Assembly (NCBI GenBank): GCA_014384025.1
Contig: JACNGQ010000164.1
Span: 1 to 35,157, forward strand
Source of the DNA: Planctomycetota bacterium
GTDB taxonomy: Bacteria; Planctomycetota; Phycisphaerae; Sedimentisphaerales; Anaerobacaceae
Direction of reading: 5' to 3'
DNA: 35,157 nt
Below the pieces are notes generated by a model that was given only the letters and a program-made list of their open reading frames with translations, was not told the origin of the DNA and made no database searches. The translations under genes and the position numbers were made by a program. This document shows positions 1-12,010 of the stretch, one piece after another (the first letter of the stretch is position 1; every line of letters begins with the position of its first letter).

Positions 1-36
1 CTCGTTCTCATCTGCAGCTACTTCCACACAAATAGA

Positions 37-309
37 TTAACCTCTAACTACACACGTAAGACGTCCATCTTGAGTCGCAGCGTTATTCTCCCACTGAAGA
101 GGACGGAGGTTAGAGAGAGCATCTGAACCTCCACAGGAAACTGGTGTTATGTGATCGACTTCCCATCCATACTGTGAATTACGATTCCCATAATAATTTC
201 TACCAATCCATGCACCGCATCGGTCTTTTCGCCAGACTCCAGCATCATATCCGCGCACGATTGTGCCTTTTTCCCATACTTGTTTAATAGTACTTTCTGA
301 AAAACTCAT
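37..309 (-). CDS. small HNH endonuclease-like protein
   Basis: Ninety-residue protein that is almost entirely an HNH module. Seen: a WRKD-C-GAW segment, a YGNRNSQYGWEVDHI segment containing the DH pair, then GG-D, NLRPL and WENN. This order (Asp-His, Gly-Gly, Asn-Leu, Asn) is the usual beta-beta-alpha metal nuclease core. Start chosen at 309 because GGAG sits 8 nt upstream; a frame opening at 354 adds 15 residues with no ribosome site. The protein is far shorter than homing or restriction HNH enzymes, so it is either a compact free-standing nuclease or one needing a partner. It is divergent from the sigma/ImmA cassette across a 187-bp control region. DNA cleavage is inferred from the family; the target is unknown. 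Confidence 0.8.
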   Translation of the reverse strand: MSFSESTIKQVWEKGTIVRGYDAGVWRKDRCGAWIGRNYYGNRNSQYGWEVDHITPVSCGGSDALSNLRPLQWENNAATQDGRLTCVVRG

Positions 310-344
310 TGCAATTATCTCCATAAAACACACAACATATATTT

Positions 345-366
345 TGGCTATCATCCGAAATAGCCA
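345..366. promoter_or_regulatory. inverted repeat in the divergent HNH/sigma control region
   Basis: TGGCTAT and ATAGCCA form perfect 7-bp arms around an 8-nt centre, about 36 bp upstream of the HNH start and 130 bp upstream of the sigma-like gene. The placement suits an operator for the leftward gene. Chance occurrence in AT-rich DNA is possible. Confidence 0.35.
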
Positions 367-390
367 TTCCTATTTTTATATGCTAAGAAA

Positions 391-420
391 TTGGAGTTTT
401 TTGCCGCATACATGGATAAT
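391..420 (+). promoter_or_regulatory. possible sigma-70 promoter of the sigma/ImmA cassette
   Basis: TTGGAG, an 18-nt spacer and GATAAT point rightward, about 75 bp before the first gene of the cassette. The match to TTGACA/TATAAT is moderate and the surrounding sequence is AT-rich, so this is only a candidate. Confidence 0.3.
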
Positions 421-469
421 TATCTGTTTTTTCCAGCATAAATAAATAGAATGGATTACTTCTTCTATC

Positions 470-487
470 TTTTCGTTGAAACGAAAA
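470..487 (+). promoter_or_regulatory. perfect palindrome just before the sigma-like gene
   Basis: TTTTCGTTGAAACGAAAA has 8-bp perfect arms around a 2-nt centre and ends 9 nt before the ATG of the sigma-like gene. It occupies the place where a Shine-Dalgarno site would lie, and no GGAG-like site is visible there. It could be a protein operator for autoregulation. A 2-nt loop makes an RNA hairpin less likely unless some inner pairs open. Confidence 0.45.
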
Positions 488-496
488 TGCACTTAA

Positions 497-1102
497 ATGA
501 CTGATATATCACAAATTACAGAAGAGGAATTGAAACAATACATCAAACGACTCACTTTATACGCGCAAAAGAAATTCTTTAAGCTCGGCTGGGTAAGAAA
601 AGGTTCCTATAGAATAGATCCTCAAGGTATGGGGCCTCAAGATGTTGTTGCTGAGGCAATCATAAGAGTAATCGAAGGGAAACGAAAATATAACAAGCAA
701 GCTTATCCTGTTTATATGGACTTTCTACGCTCAGTAGTAGACAGTATTATTTGGAATATGTTGAACTTGGTTAAACATAAAAAAGTACAGCCATTGCCAA
801 GTATAACCAATAACTATGATCAAAAAAAAGTTTTTGAGATAGAAGATAAAAAACTTTCTCCCGTTCAAAATTTGATCAACAAAGAGATGGCAGATAATGT
901 CAAAGCTATTTTAATTAGTACTTTTTCAAATGATGATGTCGTATGCGGTATTCTGGAATGTTTTAAAGCAGGTATTATCAAACGCTCAGAAATAGCAGAA
1001 TATTTAGAGGTAAAGACTAAAGATGTTGACAATGCGAAAAAAAGGTTACGGAGAGCGATTGAGACGAAGTTACAGGAATACAAGTTGGAGGATCAAAAAT
1101 GA
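497..1102 (+). CDS. sigma-70-family (ECF-like) factor
   Basis: Protein of 201 residues with the layout of a two-domain sigma factor. Residues about 20-95 resemble region 2: an acidic DVVAEAIIRVIEGKRKYN segment followed by an FLRSVVDSIIWNML helix. Residues about 150-195 resemble the region 4 helix-turn-helix: IIKRSEIAEYLEVKTKDVDNA, then KKRLRRAIE. The first gene of a rightward three-gene cassette, its stop overlaps the next start by ATGA, which implies translational coupling. No obvious Shine-Dalgarno site precedes it, while a perfect palindrome does, suggesting autoregulation. The low G+C resembles accessory DNA. The sigma role is inferred from the domain pattern; a phage-type or atypical DNA-binding regulator is the alternative. 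Confidence 0.75.
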   Translation: MTDISQITEEELKQYIKRLTLYAQKKFFKLGWVRKGSYRIDPQGMGPQDVVAEAIIRVIEGKRKYNKQAYPVYMDFLRSVVDSIIWNMLNLVKHKKVQPLPSITNNYDQKKVFEIEDKKLSPVQNLINKEMADNVKAILISTFSNDDVVCGILECFKAGIIKRSEIAEYLEVKTKDVDNAKKRLRRAIETKLQEYKLEDQK

Positions 1103-1542
1103 CAAAAGGTTTTGAAGATTTCAATAATGATCTATGTGATAAACTTTTTGATTTCATTTATCCTGATGAGAGTAACTTGTCAGATAAAGAAGTAGATGCA
1201 GAAATCCAAAGGCTTGGAATAGATGTAAGGCCTGCTTGGGATAAAATCCAGATGGCTCTTCACCATCACAAAGAAACGGAAAACGCCAGAACAAAACTTA
1301 AGTATGCAACAAAGAAAAGACGCTCTATTCTTGCTAAACTCAAAAATGTTCAGTCTCCTTATCTTCCGCGTAATCGAGAAGAAATCCTTAAGTTTATTCA
1401 AAAAAGATTTATGCAACCAGAGCAAGCAATATATTGTAGAAAATTAGAAACTGCCGCAAGTGATGAAGATCTCAAGTCTATACTTGAAGACATATTGCGC
1501 TTAGATGAACTCTCTAAGGATTCGGACGATGTTAAGACGTGA
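1099..1542 (+). CDS. unknown 147-residue protein, possible sigma partner
   Basis: I do not recognise this family. It is a soluble, charged, probably helical protein with no membrane segment. Residues about 25-60 carry an acidic stretch with EVDAEIQRLGI, followed by a very basic stretch around residues 64-82 (KLKYATKKRRSILAKLK), and an acidic C-terminus. It starts inside the stop of the sigma-like gene (ATGA) and overlaps the ImmA/IrrE gene by 14 bp, so all three are almost certainly made together. By analogy with ImmR/ImmA, it could be the protein that holds the sigma factor inactive and is cut by the peptidase. That role is inference from gene order only. Confidence 0.7.
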   Translation: MTKGFEDFNNDLCDKLFDFIYPDESNLSDKEVDAEIQRLGIDVRPAWDKIQMALHHHKETENARTKLKYATKKRRSILAKLKNVQSPYLPRNREEILKFIQKRFMQPEQAIYCRKLETAASDEDLKSILEDILRLDELSKDSDDVKT

Positions 1543-2314
1543 TTTTAGAATGACAATCGCTCGTGGGGAGCCTGAAAGATGGTGGAAGTTATATGGCTTC
1601 TCCGAACCCAAGGATCTTATCTTGGAAGACCTGGCACTTGTGCGGGGAGTATTGGTAACTGAAGGCCCTATGGAAAAAATGGAAGCTCGATTGATAAGAA
1701 GTGGAGACAAAGGACTAATCCGTGTGCGTCAAAATATTCCTGAGCTTGGGCGTAAGAGATTTGCTATTGCCCACGAACTTGGTCATTGGGAACTACATAA
1801 AGATATTTCTCAATTATTTGCATGTACAAGTGATGATATGATTGCATCGTATAAAAGCAGTGAACCAGAAGGCGAGGCCAACATTTTTGCTTCGGGCTTG
1901 TTAATGCCATCTAACCTATTTCAAAAACAAATCGAAAGCACTGTTTTATCATTACCTAAAGTAAGAGAACTATCTAGCTATTTTTTAACTTCTCTAACCG
2001 CAACTACTATACGCTATGTATCTTTGAGCCAAGATTATTGTGCGATGGTTATCTCAGAGAATGGGAAAATAAGATGGTGGTATGCTAGTAATTCTTTCAA
2101 GCAGCTATTTTACCTTTCTGTCGGAACAGACTTGTCACCCAACACAATTGCGGGTAGTTTTTTCTTAAAAGGTGAAAAGCCAATGGGGCCAGAAGAGATT
2201 GATATAGAAGCATGGACTCAGAGTAGCTCAAGCTCTGATTTAAGCATTTTCATTGAAGAATCAATTTATATGCAGCGTTATAATAAAATGCTTACGCTCT
2301 TAAGATTACCTTAG
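1529..2314 (+). CDS. ImmA/IrrE-family metallopeptidase
   Basis: Zinc peptidase of the ImmA/IrrE (DUF955) group. Seen: HELGH at residues 82-86 (two His ligands and the catalytic Glu) and a downstream EGEANIFASGLLMPS segment whose Glu116 is the expected third ligand. The remainder, about 120 residues, is a C-terminal extension that may sense a signal or bind substrate. Start taken at 1529 because AAGGA lies 8 nt upstream; a longer frame from 1505 has no such site. It overlaps the preceding gene by 14 bp. Family members such as ImmA and IrrE cleave a repressor to switch on mobile-element or stress genes. Here the likely substrate is one of the two upstream products (inference). Confidence 0.88.
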   Translation: MLRRDFRMTIARGEPERWWKLYGFSEPKDLILEDLALVRGVLVTEGPMEKMEARLIRSGDKGLIRVRQNIPELGRKRFAIAHELGHWELHKDISQLFACTSDDMIASYKSSEPEGEANIFASGLLMPSNLFQKQIESTVLSLPKVRELSSYFLTSLTATTIRYVSLSQDYCAMVISENGKIRWWYASNSFKQLFYLSVGTDLSPNTIAGSFFLKGEKPMGPEEIDIEAWTQSSSSSDLSIFIEESIYMQRYNKMLTLLRLP

Positions 2315-2356
2315 TCTCAACCGTGAGTGCAAGCAAGTAGCACACACTAATCGACA

Positions 2357-3637
2357 TCAAATCAACTTAATAATAGCGGTAATCAGTGCGCCTAATACTC
2401 CACACCCATTGGCCAATTGGTTCAAGACCTTTTCATCATTAACGGTAATAGCATCGAGGTGGCGGTTGATAAATTGCTGGAGTCGTTTGGGTGTTGCTTT
2501 TGCAATTATAGCAGCGGCCATGGCGAGCAGATGGGCGAGAGAGGGAAGGGCCGATGAACATACCAGGATAAAGACGAAGCTGGAATTTCGTGATGAAGGC
2601 AGAAGTTCGTAAAACTTTCCAAATAAGGGACAATAACGGATTAAGAGCAAAATCGCACTCGAAAGTGAAATCAAAAGACCTATTATAATGCCATATTTTA
2701 AAACAGAATCTACCTTATCTTGCGGGTGCCATTTGAAGATTCTAAGCGACCAAAATATTATTATAGGTATAAGAAAAACGAATGTTAAGGAAAAAAAAGG
2801 GCCAGACCAGGTAGCAGTTTTAAGAGAAGGATAGAGTAAACCTATAATAAACATAATGAGAAAAGCACAAGAAGGTAAAGACAGAATATAAAATAATGTC
2901 AAAAATGGATTCTGAAAGAATTCTTTTCGAGGATTAGGATGTCCTGCATGCCTGAATGCAAAATATGACGCCCAAATCATCAAACCCACAAACAAGCTGA
3001 TGAGAAACGAACCACAATGGCCCATCGAGAAGTTTGTGAGAAGCCAAAAATATAGAAGAGAGAAAATAAGTACGAGGAACAAGAGTACAATGGATATGTC
3101 GGTCATCAGCTCAATCAGGAACAGGCCAATACTACGGCTGCGGCAGGCTACCCAGATGATGCCCATTGTGAACAGAAAAGAAGAAAGGTCAAGCAGAGTA
3201 AGCTGAAATACAGAGGCCACCGCCATTGCCGGGTGCATGGCAGAGCCCATCGTATCTATGGTAAGCTGTTTATCAGGAGGAACCAGCTCGTTCAAACTCG
3301 TGGTCAGGGCCTTTAACTCTGCCAGGTCTATGCCAAAAAAGTATTTTCCCAGGCAGAGTGAGGCCGCATTTAACAACAAAAAGAAGAGGAAAAGATAAAG
3401 GAATCGTATCTTTTTTTGAAATATGCCGGCGAGGCGGTCATACAATCTTTGAAGTGCAGCCCGAGCTACCTCAAAATAGGTATGTTGCGAGAGATAATCC
3501 CAGGTGAGACGGACACCGTCCCTTAAGGGTTTATCCTTATCATGATATAACCAGGCAAGGTATTTGAATATACACTTAATAACAATGAAAACGCCGGCTA
3601 TCCATGCCCATGTAGAGATTTTAAGAAAGGCTGTCAT
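2357..3637 (-). CDS. multi-span membrane protein of unknown function
   Basis: Protein of 426 residues with roughly nine to ten hydrophobic stretches, for example near residues 8-25, 77-97, 150-170, 175-200, 208-228, 250-270, 280-300, 315-335, 350-375 and the C-terminus. A basic, soluble stretch at residues 30-75 follows the first span. I recognise no transporter, protease or transferase motif. It converges with the ImmA/IrrE gene (42 bp between stops). Its upstream region, 3638-3947, carries one copy of a 30-bp repeat. No strong ribosome site is visible at the ATG, so the exact start is uncertain. Function unknown. Confidence 0.7.
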   Translation of the reverse strand: MTAFLKISTWAWIAGVFIVIKCIFKYLAWLYHDKDKPLRDGVRLTWDYLSQHTYFEVARAALQRLYDRLAGIFQKKIRFLYLFLFFLLLNAASLCLGKYFFGIDLAELKALTTSLNELVPPDKQLTIDTMGSAMHPAMAVASVFQLTLLDLSSFLFTMGIIWVACRSRSIGLFLIELMTDISIVLLFLVLIFSLLYFWLLTNFSMGHCGSFLISLFVGLMIWASYFAFRHAGHPNPRKEFFQNPFLTLFYILSLPSCAFLIMFIIGLLYPSLKTATWSGPFFSLTFVFLIPIIIFWSLRIFKWHPQDKVDSVLKYGIIIGLLISLSSAILLLIRYCPLFGKFYELLPSSRNSSFVFILVCSSALPSLAHLLAMAAAIIAKATPKRLQQFINRHLDAITVNDEKVLNQLANGCGVLGALITAIIKLI

Positions 3638-3726
3638 ATCTCATATTTAGTCGATAGTCATAAGTATTTCGTGTTTAGTGGGGCGAGGCCGAAAAGCCGG
3701 CATTTTTTAAGAGAAATCCGCAGTTG

Positions 3727-3756
3727 TGAATCACGCCTTTAGGAGTAGAGAATAAC
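3727..3756. repeat. 30-bp imperfect direct repeat, copy A
   Basis: Matches copy B at 6945-6974 at 27 of 30 positions, same orientation. The first 15 bases (TGAATCACGCCTTTA) are identical. It lies 90 bp upstream of the leftward membrane protein gene. The following 20 or so bases (A-rich, with a TCAAA) are also weakly alike. Confidence 0.7.
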
Positions 3757-3806
3757 GGAAAGGGGTTAAAAATTCAAAGGAATTTTTTGAGGATTTGTTA
3801 ATTTAG

Positions 3807-3834
3807 CCCTTCGTCTGAAGCTCAGGATGAAGGG
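3807..3834. repeat. REP-like intergenic hairpin
   Basis: Arms CCCTTCGTC and GATGAAGGG pair over 9 positions with one G-T. An inner TGA/TCA pair closes a 3-nt loop after a single bulge. Similar CCTTCG/GAAGG palindromes are common intergenic repeats in many bacteria. A resembling half-element (TTTGTCTAAGGCTCAGG) occurs at about 6771-6787. Confidence 0.5.
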
Positions 3835-3947
3835 GGAGATAGCATTTCTACCCCCCGGCCCCCTGTTATATGCCAAGGGAGTTTTTCTCGGGGGTAAACT
3901 CAAAAGCAAATACGGGCTTTACAATGCCGTACAATATAGAATTATTC

Positions 3948-6593
3948 TCAGCGGCTACGCAGGCGCCGACCGGGCGGTCTTCGATATATGAGCCGAGGAG
4001 AATCCTGTCGGCGTATTTTATCACCTAAGGGAATATTTTCCGGAGAGGACAACCATCCTTCTTCATAGATCTTAGTTAAGACGCGGGGAATATTGAGGCC
4101 GGCAGCCAAAATCCTGTGGTTCTCATCGGTTAATATCGTCCATGGAAGAGACCTGAGACCCCATTCCCGCCTTAAGGTATTCATGATTTCCGGGGCCTGT
4201 TTCAATATCAGGGGATTGTTTTTGCCGTTCAATTCCGGCTGTCCGGGCAAGATATAAACAGGAAAGGATATTTTGTTTTCCTTTTTCCATGCAGCGAAAT
4301 CTCCTTCATCAACCGGTGCAACCTGAATGCAAACGACTTCTACATTACTGCGTCTAAGATCGCGTTGTCCTCTTTTCAATGAATCAAAGGCAATTTGTGA
4401 CGGGCGCTCGGTATAATCCACAAAGACGACCAGGATTTTCTTGTTTTTAATGCTGTTGTAATCAAAACCCATTTCTAAAAGCCTTAAATCCGGAAGCTGA
4501 CTGCCTACTAATGAAATCGGAGGGAAGTAGTTCTTAAAATGATTCCCAAGTTTTATCGGCACATTGTCCCGGCTATGGGCGTAGATATAGGCGGCGTCAG
4601 GACCCTGGCCAAAACCCGACTGGAGAGTTACAGGACCTTCAGGTATCCTTTTAAATTTAAACCTTCCCAGCTCATCTGTGGTAGTTCCTTTACCAATATG
4701 TGCTCCTCCACTATCACTGCCAACAAAAACAGGTTGGCGGGCTACAGGATTATCGTTTTCATCCAGAACAACACCTGAAATAAAGGCATCCAGGTTAATC
4801 AGTTTCATATCGGGAATCGTAACCTCTTCACCGGGCAACATGGGTTCTTCTAATGTATATCTTGTGGGTGCAAATTCCGATGCATCAAAACTAAGGTGAT
4901 AGTGAAAGCTGCTGGTAAGAGGCATGACCGTCTCCAGGTGATAGTACCCTTCAGAATCCGTGCGAGTTCCAGCCGTATCCAAATGGGCTGTTCCAAGCAT
5001 ATTTCTTTTTCCCGAACGCTTCATACAGTTCATTGAAATTTTCACGTTTGCTCCTGCGATTCCCCTGCCCATATCATCAGTCAGGCGGCCCTTAATTGAA
5101 CCACCTGGTTTTAAGACAACTCGAAGTTCACGCATGGCATTATAGAAAAATTCGGCTCCGGCAAGGTTATTCTTTTTGTCCCGTGCAACAACCAAATGAG
5201 ATGGATAGAGAGGGTTTTGCATGCCTTCGAACCAGCCATTACTGTCGGTTAAAACTCTCTGGCCAATTCCTACAGTTATATATACATTTTCTGCCGGTTG
5301 ACCTTGAGTATCCACAACAGTTCCTCGAACAAGATGTAAACGCGGCTTAACAAGGATTTCCACCGAAGCCGGTCGCGAACCGGTAATATTCACTTCTGTG
5401 CCTTTAAAATTCATTCTCGTCTCATAGTTCCCTCCCCAGGCATGAACCCCGTAACGTCCCTGAGGAACCATAAGATGTGCTATACCATTTGCATCCGCTC
5501 TGGTCTCACGAATAAAAATATCTTCCTGCTCGTAATTCCAACGTTCATCAAAAACTTGTACCTTCATACGGGGTAACGCTTTGCCGGTAGTAGGATCTTT
5601 AACAATCACTTCTAACGGCACTCCTTTTTCGACTAAAATCTTTGTTCTTACATTCTCGTCTCCTCTATTCACAGTAATGGGAACATTCTTACCAGCCCAT
5701 TCATTAGGACCGGTCTTAGATGAAATGAAACGAAGAATATGTTTGCCGGGAGGAACGCCTTTAAACTCAAACTCCCCGTTTGTAATAGTGGATCGTACAC
5801 AGGAACGGAAACGCCATTCGGTTTCAGCCCCTTCGCTCGTGAAAATAAGTAAACGCATATCCTTCAGCCCCTGACCTGTGCCTTTATCTATCACCCGGCC
5901 CCGGACTGTAGTTGCCGGAGGTAATGTCAGCTCTAAGTCCTCCCAATCCACATGATATCCACCACAGGCATTACCTTCCATTCCTCGAGGGGGGTAAATA
6001 TAGGCAATATCCCTATTGGGTACTTCAATAAAAAACTTCACCATTAAATCGAGGGGAAGGTCATCAAAAACAAATCGGCCCTTACTATCTGTCTTGACAG
6101 AGAACCAATCTTTTGGTTCATACATAATTTCCCCGCTACCTCCACGCGTATAGACCTGAACATTCGCACCTGCAACTAATTTGCCTTCGGAATCCACAAG
6201 TTTTCCTGCTAATGTAAATGGTTTAGGCAAGACAATATCGATAAAATTATCATCCGGCTTAGCCTCGTAGATGCGCTTTTTGTAGATATAATCCCATCCT
6301 AAAGCCAGGCCCTCTTTTCTGGCAACAACATAGATATCATGACGGGGCGTTGCCGTAACATTAAAAACAAATCGTCCCTGGTGGTCGGTCTTTTTGATTT
6401 TATCCAGTAATTTTGCCGTCGCTGGAGAATAAATATCATCTCGATGTATCTCGAATATCGCAATGTCTGCTCCTTCGACCATGCGGGCTTGATAATCCCG
6501 GACCTGGCCTGTGATTTCCACACTTTCACCGATTTGGCCGGCGGTCAGGCCGGTCAACATGAAGACAAGAGCGAGGCCCATTTGTTTACTCAT
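3948..6593 (-). CDS. secreted protein with carboxypeptidase-regulatory-like repeats and thioredoxin-like C-terminus
   Basis: Large exported protein (881 residues from this start). Residues 1-20 form a signal peptide (MSKQMGLALVFMLTGLTAG). Up to about residue 700 there are repeated beta-sandwich units of the carboxypeptidase-regulatory/CnaB type, recognisable by recurring G-x-V-x-D, G-A-x-V and D-x-x-G-x-F motifs. Residues about 714-860 look like a thioredoxin/AhpC-type fold (KILVVFVDY near the start, then LPWTILTDENHRI), but the CxxC redox site is absent. Two starts are possible: 6593 has AAGGA 7 nt upstream and gives the signal peptide; 6701 has GGAGG 7 nt upstream but adds 36 residues before it. 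Planctomycetes carry many such proteins; substrate and partner are unknown. Confidence 0.82.
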   Translation of the reverse strand: MSKQMGLALVFMLTGLTAGQIGESVEITGQVRDYQARMVEGADIAIFEIHRDDIYSPATAKLLDKIKKTDHQGRFVFNVTATPRHDIYVVARKEGLALGWDYIYKKRIYEAKPDDNFIDIVLPKPFTLAGKLVDSEGKLVAGANVQVYTRGGSGEIMYEPKDWFSVKTDSKGRFVFDDLPLDLMVKFFIEVPNRDIAYIYPPRGMEGNACGGYHVDWEDLELTLPPATTVRGRVIDKGTGQGLKDMRLLIFTSEGAETEWRFRSCVRSTITNGEFEFKGVPPGKHILRFISSKTGPNEWAGKNVPITVNRGDENVRTKILVEKGVPLEVIVKDPTTGKALPRMKVQVFDERWNYEQEDIFIRETRADANGIAHLMVPQGRYGVHAWGGNYETRMNFKGTEVNITGSRPASVEILVKPRLHLVRGTVVDTQGQPAENVYITVGIGQRVLTDSNGWFEGMQNPLYPSHLVVARDKKNNLAGAEFFYNAMRELRVVLKPGGSIKGRLTDDMGRGIAGANVKISMNCMKRSGKRNMLGTAHLDTAGTRTDSEGYYHLETVMPLTSSFHYHLSFDASEFAPTRYTLEEPMLPGEEVTIPDMKLINLDAFISGVVLDENDNPVARQPVFVGSDSGGAHIGKGTTTDELGRFKFKRIPEGPVTLQSGFGQGPDAAYIYAHSRDNVPIKLGNHFKNYFPPISLVGSQLPDLRLLEMGFDYNSIKNKKILVVFVDYTERPSQIAFDSLKRGQRDLRRSNVEVVCIQVAPVDEGDFAAWKKENKISFPVYILPGQPELNGKNNPLILKQAPEIMNTLRREWGLRSLPWTILTDENHRILAAGLNIPRVLTKIYEEGWLSSPENIPLGDKIRRQDSPRLIYRRPPGRRLRSR

Positions 6594-6944
6594 GGCTCTG
6601 TCCTTAGCAAAAATACCGCATAGCAGGACTATACGCCAGATCTGGATATAAACCGGGATTTCCCATATTTCCGCCAACACAAGAATTGTTTTCCGTCTCA
6701 TTTCGGCACCTCCAGATAAAAGTTAACATTTCTAAGGTTCACGAAAAAAGAAAATCGCTGCATGATAGTTTTTGTCTAAGGCTCAGGTTCGGTTTCCGCA
6801 CAGACCTGCCATTAGCTTCGAATATGATTATATCATCCTGAATGCTGCCAAGCAAGGAAAAAAGAGGTGAGAGTTAAAGAAGTGTGGAATATCGCACCCT
6901 CTATTGAAGCGTATCTCTTATCTCGTGTTGATTTTACTCCCAGA

Positions 6945-6974
6945 TGAATCACGCCTTTAATAGTAGGGAATAAC
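6945..6974. repeat. 30-bp imperfect direct repeat, copy B
   Basis: Partner of copy A at 3727-3756 (27 of 30 identical, same orientation). It lies between the response-regulator gene and the secreted protein gene, 62 bp beyond the regulator's stop. The two copies bracket the secreted protein gene. Confidence 0.7.
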
Positions 6975-7018
6975 ATAAAAGAAATAAAAAAATCAAAATG
7001 CAAATAGTAAATCCCGGC

Positions 7019-7036
7019 GAGCACTTGGGGTTGCTC
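7019..7036 (-). terminator. weak hairpin directly after the response-regulator stop
   Basis: GAGCA and TGCTC arms with an 8-nt loop begin at the base after the stop codon. The stem is only 5 bp, and the T-rich tract on this strand begins about 20 nt later, so intrinsic termination is doubtful. Confidence 0.25.
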
Positions 7037-8407
7037 CTACAGGTTGTATTCTTTGATTTTTCTATAGAGAGTTCTTTCTCCGATGCCGAGGATTTTTGCG
7101 GCTTGTTCGCGGTTGCCTTTTGTTTTTGATAATGTGTCAATAATGGCCTGCTTTTCAAGTTCGTTCAGGGGCAAACCTGCCAAGCCGGCTGCCGTGCTGC
7201 CGGAGGCCAATTGCGGTCTCTGTGCTATTTCAGGGGGAATGTCGGCCGCATCGAGTTTGTCGTGGTCGCACATGACAACCATCGTCCTGATAGTGTTTCG
7301 CAGTTGGCGAATGTTGCCGGGCCATTCATAGTGTGTAAGGATTGTCTGTGCGGCGTCGGTTATGCCTGTAACTTTGGAGCCGACCTCTGTGACGGCCTCT
7401 TTGATGAAATAGTCGATAAACTCCGGTATGTCCTGTGCTCTGTCTCGCAGGGCCGGAAGAGAAATGTTTACGCCCTTGATTCTAAAGTACAAATCCTGTC
7501 TGAAATCTTTTGTTTCAATAAGATCGTTTAAGTTCTGGTTGGTTGCGCTGATGATACGGACATCCACGACTGTTTGTTTATTCGAGCCGACCGGTATGAC
7601 GATACCATCCTCGAGGACACGCAAAAGCTTGGCCTGGGAACTCGGCGCCATATCCCCGATTTCGTCCAGGAATAAAGTACCTTTATCCGCCGCTTCGAAT
7701 AATCCTTTTCTGTCATTGGCGGCACCGGTAAAGGCGCCTTTAACATGGCCGAACAGCTCGCTCTCCAAAAGCGTCTCGGGCAGACCTGCGCAGTTTATCG
7801 GCATAAAGGGCTTGTCCCATCGCAGTGAATTGTGGTGAATCGCTCTTGCCAGCAGCTCCTTGCCCGTTCCGGAGTGGCCTTCGATCAGGACAGAGATATT
7901 AGTCGGAGCCACCCGCCGCAGGACCTCGAATATACCCTCTATTGCAGGGTCTTTACCCCGGACGCCGGGGAACTTGAATTGTCCTTTGTCTGTTTTATCT
8001 TTTTGAGTTTGTCGGGAATGTGCGGCCATGACTTTGTTGCCGGCCTGGGTTACAAGTGTGCGGAGCTGGCCAATGTCAATCGGCTTGGTGAGATAATCGT
8101 ATGCCCCCCTTTTGATGGCTTCCTTACAAGTGTCGATGGTGGCGTAGGCGGTTATTAAAATTACTTCCGTTTTGTCATTTTGCTTTCTGACTTCTTCGAG
8201 TATGGTAAGACCGTTTATATCTTCGTCTTCGAATTTCAAATCGGTAACGACAACATCGACCTGCTGGCTTCGCACGATTTCCAGAGCGTCTTTACCGGTA
8301 TAAACAGCTATTGCCCTTGTACATAATTTTTCAAGAGATTCGGCGATTCCATCGGCATGGTCCCGCTCGTCGTCAACAACCAGAATTATATTTACCTTTT
8401 GCTTCAA
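7037..8407 (-). CDS. NtrC-family sigma-54 response regulator
   Basis: Complete three-domain activator of 456 residues. The receiver (1-120) has the acid pocket Asp12/Asp13, phospho-acceptor Asp56, Thr86 and Lys108. The AAA+ domain (about 150-385) shows Walker A GHSGTGKE, the sigma-54 contact loop GAFTGA, and Walker B LFLDEIGDM. The C-terminal Fis-type helix-turn-helix ends with NREQAAKILGIGERTLYRKI. The start is TTG, supported by GAGG 7 nt upstream. It lies 12 bp behind its probable kinase, so the two form an operon. It should activate RpoN-dependent promoters on phosphorylation. Targets cannot be read from the sequence, and I found no clear -24/-12 site in the window. Confidence 0.93.
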   Translation of the reverse strand: MKQKVNIILVVDDERDHADGIAESLEKLCTRAIAVYTGKDALEIVRSQQVDVVVTDLKFEDEDINGLTILEEVRKQNDKTEVILITAYATIDTCKEAIKRGAYDYLTKPIDIGQLRTLVTQAGNKVMAAHSRQTQKDKTDKGQFKFPGVRGKDPAIEGIFEVLRRVAPTNISVLIEGHSGTGKELLARAIHHNSLRWDKPFMPINCAGLPETLLESELFGHVKGAFTGAANDRKGLFEAADKGTLFLDEIGDMAPSSQAKLLRVLEDGIVIPVGSNKQTVVDVRIISATNQNLNDLIETKDFRQDLYFRIKGVNISLPALRDRAQDIPEFIDYFIKEAVTEVGSKVTGITDAAQTILTHYEWPGNIRQLRNTIRTMVVMCDHDKLDAADIPPEIAQRPQLASGSTAAGLAGLPLNELEKQAIIDTLSKTKGNREQAAKILGIGERTLYRKIKEYNL

Positions 8408-8419
8408 ATTGGCACCTCA

Positions 8420-9238
8420 TCAGGCATAGATGGGTAACTTAATAGTAAATGATGTACCTTTTTGGGGCTCACTGTCAACTGTTATTGTACCGTTATGTGC
8501 AGTAATAATCTTCTGTGCAGAGGCCAGTCCCAAGCCACTGCCCTGCGGCCGGGATGAATAGTAAGCATTGAAGATATGCGGCAATTTGTCCGGGGTAATG
8601 CCGCTGCCAGTATCATTAATCTGAATAACTGCATCTTTTTGTTGCGGGAAAGTCCTTACCATCAATTCTCCACCTTTGCCCATAGCCTGCTGAGCGTTAA
8701 TAAACAGGTTCAATATTACCTGTTTTAACATATCTGTATCGACCTTGCAAATAAGCGGCTGATTATGCAGTCCCTGCCGCATAGTTATCGAATGGCTGTG
8801 TGCCTGTGGAGAATAAAAATCAATCATATCGCTGACAAGCTCATTAATATCAGCACTTGCCAAATGTAATTCGGTTTTGTCAACGTATCGCAGGAAGCCG
8901 TCGAGTATCTGCTCGAGTCTGTCCGTTTCTTTTTGAATAACGGCTATTTTCCTCCTCGCCCTTGTTAGACTACGATTATCTTTTTCTGTACCGATTTTGC
9001 CGGATTCGGCAGAAGCTGAATCTTTCAAATCTTCACTGACAAGCTCCAAATTAATTTTGATTGTGGAGAGAGGATTTTTTATTTCATGGGCAAGCTCGCC
9101 GGTGAGCTTTCCTAATTCTTCAAGTAGATGCCCGTTCTTGTTTTTTTGAGTTTTGGTGAATTTTTTATGCAGAAATAACCCAACAGCCGGAACAACTGCT
9201 AATAAAGCAACAACAAAACCACATATAAAATGCAGCAC
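8420..9238 (-). CDS. membrane-anchored sensor histidine kinase without a sensor domain
   Basis: Short kinase of 272 residues. One N-terminal span (about residues 4-24) is followed almost at once by the dimerisation helix with the H-box LAHEIKNPLSTIKINL. The ATPase domain has N-box NLFINAQQAM, G1 DTGSGI, F-box IFNAYYSSRP and G2 GSGLGLASAQKII, so it should be active. No periplasmic, PAS, GAF or HAMP domain fits in the space, hence signal input must come from the span or another protein. The start is GTG with GAGG 8 nt upstream. It is followed by the sigma-54 response regulator, its likely partner (NtrB/NtrC-like arrangement). Confidence 0.9.
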   Translation of the reverse strand: MLHFICGFVVALLAVVPAVGLFLHKKFTKTQKNKNGHLLEELGKLTGELAHEIKNPLSTIKINLELVSEDLKDSASAESGKIGTEKDNRSLTRARRKIAVIQKETDRLEQILDGFLRYVDKTELHLASADINELVSDMIDFYSPQAHSHSITMRQGLHNQPLICKVDTDMLKQVILNLFINAQQAMGKGGELMVRTFPQQKDAVIQINDTGSGITPDKLPHIFNAYYSSRPQGSGLGLASAQKIITAHNGTITVDSEPQKGTSFTIKLPIYA

Positions 9239-9310
9239 TTATCTTCCCTCTGCCTTTTGACCTTAGTAGATTGGAGTAAGGTTCCGTAAAGACTGAAAAA
9301 CCAAAACACA

Positions 9311-9351
9311 ACAAAAATCGATTAGGGACAAATTTTCAACTATCCCCAATC
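9311..9351 (-). terminator. probable terminator after pnp
   Basis: On the minus strand GATTGGGGA and TCCCTAATC pair over 9 positions (one G-T) around a 14-nt loop, followed by a short T-rich tract (ATTTTTGT). It begins 16 nt after the pnp stop and would separate rpsO-pnp from the two-component pair. The long loop makes it moderate. Confidence 0.5.
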
Positions 9352-9367
9352 AATGTTGCAATTTTTT

Positions 9368-11608
9368 TTAGTCGTCTTGCTTTTCTTCAACTTTTTCCGC
9401 TTCTGACACTTTTTCCGCTTTATCTATTTCAGCAAGAGCAGCTTTACGGGAAAGTTTAAGTCTGCCCTGGTCATCGATCGAAATTAATTTTACAGGTATC
9501 AAATCACCCATTTTGCAAACTTCATCGACTTTTTTGATATAGCCATCACTAAGCTCGCTAATGTGACAGAGGCCTTCGACACCAGGAGTGATTTCAACAA
9601 AAGCTCCAAAATCCTTTACAGAGACCACTTTTGCCGGATTATAAATTCGGCCGACTTTCGGCGGCTGAGTAATCATCTCGATAATATCTTTAGCCTTGAG
9701 GTGACCATCTCCACCGAGACAGCTAATGAAAATAGTCCCGTCTTCTTCGATCTCAATTGTTGTATCGGTTTGCTCCTGAATACCTTTTATAACTTTACCA
9801 CCCGGCCCGATTACTTTGCCGATAAATTCAGGGTCAATTTGGATACTAATCAGTTTCGGGGCATATTTGCTTAATTCAGGCTTTGGCTCACTAATAGTTT
9901 GGCTCATAATCTTGAGGATTTCCAGCCGTGCCGTTTTAGCTCGTTCCAACGCCTCGACCATAATATTATGTGCCAGACCATCAGCTTTAATGTCGAGTTG
10001 TATAGCCGTGATACCGTCAACCGTCCCGGCAACCTTGAAATCCATTTCACCGTAGTGGTCTTCCTCGCCAGCTATATCGGTGAGCAGTTCGTATCTGCCC
10101 TCTTCGGCGCTAATCAAGCCGATTGATATACCGGCGACTGGCTTTGTAATCGGCACGCCGGCGTCCATTAGAGCTAATGCTCCCCCGCAGACCGAAGCCA
10201 TAGAGCTGGAGCCGTTCGATTCGGTGATATCAGAAATAATCCTGATAGTATAAGCGAATTTATCGGTCGGGGGTTTTACCTGCTCCAGAGCCTTTTCTGC
10301 GAGAGCTCCGTGTCCGATTTCTCTTCGGCCGGGACCTCGCATCGGCCGTACCTCACCGACGGAAAACGGTGGGAAGTTGTAGTGCAGAGTGAAGTTTTGA
10401 GCGTATTCATCCAATAAGCCGTCTATAATCTGTGCATCTCTGACAGTGCCGAGAGTCACAGTTACTATGGACTGCGTTTCTCCTCGGGTAAATAATGCTG
10501 AGCCGTGGGTCCTGGGTAAAATTCCTACTTCGCAAGAAATATGACGTATGTCATTGTAACCTCTGCCATCGGACCTTTTACCGCTTAAGAGCAGTTTCTT
10601 TATGACCTCGCCCTCTATTTTATCAAGCATTCGTTTGACCATTGCCTTGTTATATATGCTGTCAGAGTCAATCTGCGATTGCGGATGATCCTCATCTGGG
10701 CTATCCTGATCTCCCGATGGATCCTCATCAGGGTCAATCTGCGATGGCGGATTATCCTCATCAGTACAGTATTGGGTTATAACCTGCTCAAAAAGCTCTC
10801 TTTTTGCTGTTTTACGCTCCTGCTTATTTGTTATCTGCTGAAGCTCGTATAGTTTATCTGATATCTGTGAACGAATGTCTGAAAGCAGCTGATCGTTATT
10901 TTCGGCAAGCGGGATTTGCTTTTCGACGCCAGCCTTCTCGCGGAGCTCTTCGATCATTTCACAAACCTGAGTGACTGTTTTTTGAGCGGTTTCGACAGCA
11001 TCAGCGATAACATTTTCCGGTAGCTGCTTGGCACTGATTTCAATCATATTCATCGCATCTTTGTGTCCGCCAAGGAGTAAATTCAAGTCTCCTTCGGCAA
11101 GCTGCTTATGCGTGGGATTTACCACGAACTGCCCGTTTACTCTTCCTAATCTGCAGGCCCCAATCGGCCCTAAGAAAGGGATCTTGCTAATTGTAAGAGC
11201 AGCACTGGCGCCTATCATTGCCAGAACATCCGGGTCATTTTCCTGGTCGGCACTTAAGACATTGGCTGAGATTTGCACTTCCTGGAAGTAGCCCTCTGGA
11301 AACAGTGGCCTAATAGGTCTGTCAATCTGCCTTGCCGTCAGGATTTCTTTTGTGCTCGGCCTACCCTCACGTTTAATAAAGCCGCCCGGAAATTTACCTG
11401 CGGCGCTATGTTTCTCGCGATAATCAACACTTAATGGGAAAAAATCAATATCATCGAATCTTGGGGGCGCAGTTACTGCTGCGACAAGAACGATTGTATC
11501 ACCATATTGGACTAAAACTGCACCATCGGCCTGTTTGGCAATTTTGCCGGTTTCGATGGAAAGTGCTCTACCGCCTATTTGTCTTTCTACTCTACATACA
11601 TCAAACAT
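9368..11608 (-). CDS. pnp: polyribonucleotide nucleotidyltransferase (PNPase)
   Basis: Phosphorolytic 3'-5' RNA exonuclease, 746 residues, trimeric cytoplasmic degradosome-type enzyme. In order: first RNase PH domain (residues 1-150), helical domain, second RNase PH domain (about 340-570) with GSALFTRGETQSIV and the catalytic DHYGEMDFK segment, KH domain (about 585-640, VIGPGGKVIKGI) and S1 domain (about 655-725, VKDFGAFVEITPGVEGLCH). The N-terminus aligns residue for residue in length with E. coli Pnp, supporting the ATG at 11608 with GAGG 6 nt upstream. Unusual: residues about 283-314 are an acidic D/E/S/P/Q-rich insertion made of a repeated unit, and the start codon lies in a tandem repeat. 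It lies downstream of rpsO, the classic order. Confidence 0.98.
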   Translation of the reverse strand: MFDVCRVERQIGGRALSIETGKIAKQADGAVLVQYGDTIVLVAAVTAPPRFDDIDFFPLSVDYREKHSAAGKFPGGFIKREGRPSTKEILTARQIDRPIRPLFPEGYFQEVQISANVLSADQENDPDVLAMIGASAALTISKIPFLGPIGACRLGRVNGQFVVNPTHKQLAEGDLNLLLGGHKDAMNMIEISAKQLPENVIADAVETAQKTVTQVCEMIEELREKAGVEKQIPLAENNDQLLSDIRSQISDKLYELQQITNKQERKTAKRELFEQVITQYCTDEDNPPSQIDPDEDPSGDQDSPDEDHPQSQIDSDSIYNKAMVKRMLDKIEGEVIKKLLLSGKRSDGRGYNDIRHISCEVGILPRTHGSALFTRGETQSIVTVTLGTVRDAQIIDGLLDEYAQNFTLHYNFPPFSVGEVRPMRGPGRREIGHGALAEKALEQVKPPTDKFAYTIRIISDITESNGSSSMASVCGGALALMDAGVPITKPVAGISIGLISAEEGRYELLTDIAGEEDHYGEMDFKVAGTVDGITAIQLDIKADGLAHNIMVEALERAKTARLEILKIMSQTISEPKPELSKYAPKLISIQIDPEFIGKVIGPGGKVIKGIQEQTDTTIEIEEDGTIFISCLGGDGHLKAKDIIEMITQPPKVGRIYNPAKVVSVKDFGAFVEITPGVEGLCHISELSDGYIKKVDEVCKMGDLIPVKLISIDDQGRLKLSRKAALAEIDKAEKVSEAEKVEEKQDD
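10667..10762 (-). repeat. in-frame DNA repeat coding for the acidic Pnp insertion
   Basis: Two 30-bp blocks, 10667-10696 and 10733-10762, differ at only two positions and are 66 bp (22 codons) apart. They encode the repeated segments DEDHPQSQID and DEDNPPSQID. The unit length preserves frame, so expansion by duplication is likely. Confidence 0.75.
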
Positions 11609-11640
11609 ACACTACCTCTTTCTACATACATTAAACTCAT
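11587..11640 (-). CDS. possible upstream ORF 2 overlapping the pnp start
   Basis: Seventeen codons in a different frame from pnp, starting in tandem-repeat copy 2 and ending 22 nt inside pnp. Its ATG overlaps the stop of upstream ORF 1 as ATGA. Ribosomes using it would run over the pnp start. No independent evidence for translation; a weak GAGA-type site precedes it. Confidence 0.25.
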   Translation of the reverse strand: MSLMYVERGSVCLMYVE

Positions 11641-11681
11641 ACTATCTCATTCCTGCATACATCAAACATATACTACTTCAC
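11591..11681 (-). repeat. threefold tandem 30-bp repeat containing the pnp start
   Basis: Copies at 11591-11620, 11621-11650 and 11651-11681. Copy 1 matches copy 2 at 24 of 30 positions and copy 3 at about 25 of 30 after removing one base. Each copy carries a purine-rich stretch and an ATG in the same relative place. Copy 1 holds the true pnp ATG with the best ribosome site (AGAGG). Confidence 0.75.
11637..11669 (-). CDS. possible upstream ORF 1 mimicking the Pnp N-terminus
   Basis: Ten codons, MFDVCRNEIV, then TGA. The first six residues equal those of Pnp because the frame lies in repeat copy 3. Its stop overlaps the ATG of upstream ORF 2 (ATGA). Either a decoy initiation site or a by-product of repeat expansion. 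Confidence 0.25.
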   Translation of the reverse strand: MFDVCRNEIV

Positions 11682-11702
11682 TGGCATGTTAATAAGTGGA
11701 TT

Positions 11703-11720
11703 CCGCTCTTAAATGAGCGG
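11703..11720 (-). promoter_or_regulatory. rpsO-pnp intergenic hairpin
   Basis: CCGCTC and GAGCGG form a perfect 6-bp stem with a 6-nt loop, 23 nt after the rpsO stop. No T-tract follows, so it is more likely a processing or stabilising hairpin than a full terminator. In E. coli the same spacer holds an RNase III site and a leaky terminator that control pnp. Confidence 0.5.
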
Positions 11721-11743
11721 GTTACTTGTGTGCTAATGCTCAT

Positions 11744-12010
11744 CTATTTTCGCAAGCCGAGCCGGGATATAATTTTCTGATAGCGTTTTACGTCTTTATT
11801 TTTCACGTATTTTAGCAATGCCGACCTGGTCCCGACCATTTTCAATAAACCTCGTCTTGAAGCATGGTCTTTGCGGTGAATCTGGAAATGTTCTGTCAGC
11901 TCGTTAATTCTTTTCGTTAAAATAGCAATCTGCACTTCAGGTGAGCCGGTATCCCCCTCGTGCGCCTCAAAATCGCCAATAATTTCCTGTTTTTTCTGCT
12001 TTGTTAACAT
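11744..12010 (-). CDS. rpsO: 30S ribosomal protein S15
   Basis: Full-length S15 of 88 residues, which binds the central domain of 16S rRNA during small-subunit assembly. The family core is intact: [17 protein letters not shown], then [18 protein letters not shown] and the C-terminal [17 protein letters not shown]. It is the first gene of the rpsO-pnp unit, 135 bp ahead of pnp. A candidate promoter lies at 12077-12105. The best ribosome-site match (AAGGA) is 13 nt from the ATG, longer than usual. S15 often regulates its own mRNA through leader structure, but no such fold was worked out here. Confidence 0.98.

Follow-up and report, generated by a model that had tools for sequence, protein, structure and literature searches.

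A recurrent sigma factor, X protein and CapP-type peptidase cassette, most likely an on-switch for immunity

Three overlapping genes, encoding a divergent sigma factor, a small protein termed X and a peptidase of the CapP family, form a cassette that is most likely a previously undescribed on-switch for immunity. We consider it likely that the trio acts as a sigma/anti-sigma/CapP-peptidase immune controller, in which the peptidase would free the sigma factor by cleaving X. This reading builds on the gene order, the family assignments, the recurrence of the trio, its immune neighbours and the paired promoters of its homologues, all of which were observed. With moderate confidence we also favour the broader view that the trio represents an undescribed and widespread class, in which a CapP-type and probably ssDNA-sensing peptidase cuts an anti-sigma factor and so releases a dedicated sigma factor, which in turn activates back-to-back promoters, one for its own cassette and one for a CBASS, Pycsar or multiubiquitin ('Bub') operon, as a CRISPR-independent parallel to Calp and Craspase. 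No description of a sigma factor together with CBASS or ImmA, or of an ECF factor together with COG2856, was found in the literature searched, in line with the remark of the initial annotation that no characterised system has this exact order; priority is not certain because that literature leaves out most subscription papers.

Three overlapping genes and their products

The window, i.e. the whole stretch of DNA analysed here, is one entire contig (C40, 35,157 bp) and belongs to a genome of 6.69 Mb. On its plus strand, the gene of the ECF/SigH-like sigma factor (ORF1, positions 497–1102, 201 amino acids) is followed by that of X (ORF2, 1099–1542, 147 amino acids) and that of an ImmA/IrrE (M78) zinc metallopeptidase of the CapP family (ORF3, 1529–2314, 261 amino acids). 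ORF1 and ORF2 overlap by exactly 4 bp, and ORF2 and ORF3 by 14 bp if ORF3 starts at the ATG at position 1529. The first in-frame ATG of ORF3, at 1505, would give an overlap of 38 bp, but the start at 1529 is preferred because it fits the alignment of homologues. Three rightward genes overlapping by 4 and 14 bp and made together had been noticed before; the open reading frames were confirmed, with the second overlap depending on the chosen start, and co-transcription is counted as supported. The AT-rich setting noted at the same time is likewise seen in a GC content of 36–39% over positions 1–3000 versus 40–51% over positions 3001–12000.

The PADLOC capP model aligns with almost all of ORF3 (E 2.6e-58), and the best PDB match of its family profile is CapP (7t5t, 4e-26), ahead of IrrE. 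The initial annotation had recognised an ImmA/IrrE peptidase with an intact HELGH and a downstream Glu, which agrees with a match to Pfam Peptidase_M78 (E 2.4e-12) and with the invariance of HELGH and Glu114 across the family. Thus, full-length homology to CapP, the HExxH motif and the third Glu ligand are all present in ORF3, whereas the HTH repressor CapH, the partner of CapP in the CapH+CapP system, is replaced in the window by the sigma-like gene and X. A relative of CapP was sought in phages and not found.

The sigma factor is more divergent. ORF1 matches the sigma70-ECF model TIGR02937 with an E value of 6e-7, at a score below the curated cut-off, and a Pfam search with ORF1 alone gave no match. 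A profile of its 14-member family matches solved ECF/SigH sigma factors (6in7/8z6g) at about 1e-4 over regions 2 to 4, members of the family carry a sigma-70 annotation in RefSeq, and most of them retain the core-binding motif of region 2 (QEAxxR type). The NCBIfam III-E sigma model matches ORF1 weakly (E 0.0027). The AlphaFold model of ORF1, for which only three sequences were usable, has a pLDDT of 47 and is poor outside region 4; the top chains aligned to this low-confidence model by VIA-align are SigH-type proteins (Z 7.9 and 7.6), which proves little alone, and its Foldseek matches are mainly sigma factors but all with E values above 0.1. Judged by sequence, above all by the TIGR02937 and family profile matches, ORF1 is a divergent sigma factor of ECF/SigH type, as had been suspected, and binding to core polymerase is predicted.

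X keeps a constant position and a similar size at all trio loci, and its gene usually overlaps both flanking genes. The X protein of the window reaches the cut-off of no family in Pfam or NCBIfam, and tblastn against plasmids gave no match. Matches such as Tad5 (0.051) and MinE (0.071), obtained in searches of Pfam, NCBIfam and PDB sequences, were dismissed as chance helical similarities. Its AlphaFold model, again with only three usable sequences, has a pLDDT of 60 and retrieved only generic helical bundles in Foldseek. The X proteins have no TM-like stretch and few Cys or His residues, and no Pfam anti-sigma domain or membrane anchor was found when known anti-sigma families (ZAS, RseA, FecR and others) were looked for. 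The homologues are soluble and few of them are rich in Cys or His, so that X looks unlike both membrane-bound and zinc-type anti-sigma factors. We propose that X, a soluble helical protein, may be an anti-sigma factor and the substrate of CapP.

The motif [MLIV][AV][AF]R occurs within the last 48 residues of 18 of the 23 X proteins, compared with an average of 0.28 for shuffled tails, an excess that is inflated by the relatedness of these proteins, in which conservation partly reflects descent. In the X protein of the window the motif is degenerate (AIYCRK). PprI cuts DdrO in a loop containing ELRG (PMC10904395), which makes cleavage of X near the C-terminal MAAR segment, as a candidate site for CapP, a reasonable guess at most. 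Eight of 14 X proteins weakly match the PADLOC capH model (best 5.8e-8), and some sigma-X-CapP loci may therefore sit unrecognised in lists of capH/capP pairs. These matches include the X proteins of L022, L015 and L024, and an HTH is not evident in such proteins; automatic annotation may thus label their loci CapH-CapP. For the X protein of the window, which matches neither capH nor an HTH, identity with CapH was rejected.

Recurrence beside immune operons and paired promoters

A search for conserved gene order across genomes, the check proposed in the initial annotation, found the order sigma-X-CapP at 23 loci besides the window, so that the trio is not peculiar to it. Twenty of these loci lie on plasmids, two on IMG/VR contigs (L096, L097) and one in another planctomycete (L029/L277), and together they span three phyla (Bacteroidota, Alpha- and Betaproteobacteria, Planctomycetota). 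A sigma factor of 173–232 amino acids and an X protein of 99–189 amino acids are followed by CapP, mostly with short overlaps. This recurrence puts the trio far beyond chance. Most loci found by similarity to the sigma factor have X and CapP adjacent to it; the peptidase is absent at L021, L025 and L093. At L093 (Mesorhizobium, 4956–7462), the sigma gene and an X-like gene face a multiubiquitin operon, and the place of the peptidase is taken by a protein of 478 amino acids without a Pfam match, the N-terminus of which appears Ntn-hydrolase-like by eye; it is possibly a swapped protease.

The neighbour of the cassette is usually an operon of the other strand, and 12 of the 23 trio loci adjoin genes of CBASS, Pycsar, multiubiquitin, E1/JAB or 'beta' type. 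PADLOC and Pfam identified, opposite the trio, CBASS cyclases at L015 (2.6e-201), L019 and L024, a Pycsar cyclase with its effector at L091 (2e-116), multiubiquitin genes at L008 and L097, an E1/JAB protein at L022 and a beta protein at L092; multiubiquitin operons at L009, L018, L023 and L090 were recognised by annotation. CRISPR genes were absent from the annotated trio neighbourhoods. Of the mobile or defence role suggested earlier, these 12 homologous loci support the defence setting. Six other trio loci have nothing but small genes opposite them (DUF3892, DUF2188 or 92-aa), and one of the six is interrupted by an IS. The 92-aa protein is conserved, and on four rhodobacterial plasmids its gene lies opposite the trio (L015, 4555–4833; L016, 4544–4822; L017, 4552–4830; L026, 4550–4828); the copy at L015 has no Pfam match, and at one of the four loci the gene stands between the trio and CBASS.

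Most proteobacterial trios carry two mirrored TGTCCGA-N16/17-GCATAG sites in the shared intergenic region, one pointing to the cassette and one to the operon opposite. Spacer length generally agrees between the two directions, locus-specific variants of the boxes often match both ways (e.g. TGTCCGC/GCCTAA at L092), and the -10 end mostly lies 13–28 bp from the start codon of the sigma gene. The 3.8 kb of intergenic DNA hold 24 strong matches, against 5 in the other 181 kb of the same loci, a density about 230-fold higher, although this enrichment is descriptive and no independent test because the consensus was derived from the loci counted. Such a promoter was not found between the genes of two-gene HTH-CapP control loci. 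The consensus was not seen in the intergenic regions of the Bacteroidota trios, and both there and in the window the promoter pair is either weak or deviates. A loose version of the mirrored pattern occurred at 80 loci in viral contigs, none of them with the trio, and is thus too weak when used alone. The paired promoters fit a sigma factor that drives its own cassette and an immune operon, which is probably its role in the proteobacterial homologues.

In the window, the intergenic region at 310–496 contains mirrored AGCATA elements at 435–440 on the plus strand and 379–384 on the minus strand. Its mirrored identity of 20 in 30 positions was equalled by 2 of 100 dinucleotide shuffles, and a stricter two-block test was not significant (p 0.42); as a paired promoter, these elements are suggestive only. 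A perfect 18-bp palindrome, TTTTCGTTGAAACGAAAA, is located at 470–487, in the sigma gene leader just ahead of the gene. The divergent side is occupied by a small HNH nuclease gene at 37–309 on the minus strand (Pfam HNH, E 1.2e-4), in agreement with the earlier mention of a neighbouring HNH nuclease. It is the only gene visible there, as no more than 36 bp separate it from the contig end, and it may be a regulated gene or the first gene of a truncated operon. Its start is probably at 309 because an orphan paralogue of the same genome aligns from MSF. This paralogue (L274, contig C90 of G000, about 5050–5320) is 69% identical; no CapP-type peptidase was matched on its contig, and its upstream region has no motif in common with that of the window.

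A proposed switch and related controllers

The initial annotation suggested a proteolysis-controlled sigma switch with X as an inhibitor or anti-sigma factor that the peptidase removes, an idea that is partly supported by the present analysis. In the proposed mechanism, the sigma factor would be kept inactive by X in the resting state. The trigger would most likely be ssDNA, arising through DNA damage or while phages replicate, as CapP and PprI/IrrE suggest by analogy; the CapP-type peptidase would then cleave X, probably near the MAAR(N/K) segment. Once freed, the sigma factor would bring RNA polymerase to both of the back-to-back promoters, so that expression of its own cassette rises by positive feedback and the divergent immune operon is turned on.

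By analogy, we regard the trio as a counterpart of the CapH+CapP controller that uses a sigma and an anti-sigma factor and would work like the Calp and Craspase switches. Craspase, of type III-E systems, comprises Csx29, Csx30 and CASP-sigma, with a guide-RNA-activated caspase-like protease. Like Craspase, the trio combines a protease, a proposed anti-sigma substrate and a sigma factor, that of Craspase being RpoE-like; unlike in Craspase, the protease is not caspase-like, and the common part is the sigma fold only. In CalpL-CalpT-CalpS of type III CRISPR, a protease cuts an anti-sigma factor and thereby frees a sigma factor in immunity (PMC12751052), which is the logic proposed for the trio. 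However, CalpL is a cA4-activated Lon-SAVED protease within a CRISPR locus, whereas the trio has an M78 zinc peptidase and no CRISPR genes were seen nearby; the trio therefore does not belong to the Calp and Craspase type, in which the protease is Lon-SAVED or caspase-like and accompanied by type III CRISPR genes.

Three DNA-damage-responsive controller families of immune operons have been described, CapW, CapH+CapP and CapK+CapS, all of which act by de-repression (PMC13373217); a sigma-based controller is not one of them. CapH+CapP consists of a CBASS-associated repressor and an ssDNA-activated peptidase (PMC13373217; PDB 7t5t). The trio shares with it the peptidase family and, at homologous loci, the divergent position beside CBASS, Bub and other immune operons, and two-gene HTH-CapP pairs are found in comparable positions; in contrast to CapH+CapP, the trio has a sigma factor and X instead of the DNA-binding CapH, a sigma-type promoter pair and a predicted activation. 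CapK+CapS, a kinase and a STAS-wHTH repressor controlling Bub and other immune operons (PMC13373217), similarly borrows parts of sigma regulation, but contains neither a sigma factor nor a peptidase. IrrE/PprI-DdrO has an M78 peptidase in common with the trio; in IrrE/PprI-DdrO the peptidase is stimulated by ssDNA and cuts a transcription regulator (PMC10904395), but its substrate is a DNA-binding repressor, PprI carries a GAF-like sensor domain, and no sigma factor is involved. If our reading is true, the sigma-based controller would activate its targets and reinforce itself by positive feedback, as opposed to the families acting by de-repression, and the protease/anti-sigma/sigma logic of type III CRISPR would also exist with a metallopeptidase as the protease, serving CBASS, Pycsar and Bub. 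Their paired promoters could help to locate further regulated immune genes.

An unlikely alternative is that the sigma-like protein and X repress at the mirrored sites like CapH, with CapP cleaving either of them to release expression. The derepression exerted by CapH+CapP (PMC13373217), the weak capH matches of X proteins and a sigma factor in the window too divergent for Pfam would agree with this. However, unlike, asymmetric boxes 16–17 bp apart near start codons resemble -35/-10 elements and not a palindromic operator, most family members retain the QEAxxR-type motif, and members of a second subclass carry canonical Sigma70_r2 or r4 domains. It is still less probable that X serves the peptidase, as its adaptor or its inhibitor, and that the target of CapP is either the sigma factor, which would thereby be switched off, or some other protein of the host. 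The location of the X gene between the other two, usually overlapping both, would suit such a role, but the characterised relatives cut a transcription regulator to turn genes on (CapH, PMC13373217; DdrO, PMC10904395), and loss of an activator would shut down the immune operon and not induce it.

A second subclass in Planctomycetota

A survey of 392 Planctomycetota genomes yielded 18 CapP-like loci at an E value of 1e-20 or better. Reading of the upstream open reading frames revealed a sigma-like gene at 13 of them, mostly with an X-like gene in between, and an HTH gene at the other five. This second sigma-X-CapP subclass, the X proteins of which differ from the window type, is hence the commonest CapP arrangement in the sample. 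The excess of sigma over HTH partners of CapP-like peptidases was noted with L278–L282, L284, L287, L288, L291 and L292; of ten upstream genes scanned, eight passed a Pfam sigma cut-off, one fell below it and L278 had no match.

The position of this subclass also bears on the very improbable view that the trio is an ImmR/ImmA-like regulator of transfer or addiction in mobile elements, with the immune neighbours reflecting shared plasmid residence: most trios are plasmid-borne, but the annotated search was made on plasmids, and although six loci face only the small genes mentioned above, the specific divergent placement by CBASS, Pycsar and Bub operons, into several of which the paired promoter reads, and the planctomycete copies adjoining Bub and SAVED/JAB genes argue against it. 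Among these copies, L299 stands opposite a full multiubiquitin/E2/E1/DUF6527 operon; L297 comes after JAB and SAVED genes. The genome of the window itself harbours a copy of the second subclass (L275, contig C311 of G000, 647–2463; Sigma70_r2, 2e-6; capP, 6e-50). Contig C311 begins shortly upstream of this cassette, cutting off its divergent side; its X is unrelated to that of the window, and an open reading frame that appears nuclease-like by eye lies downstream.
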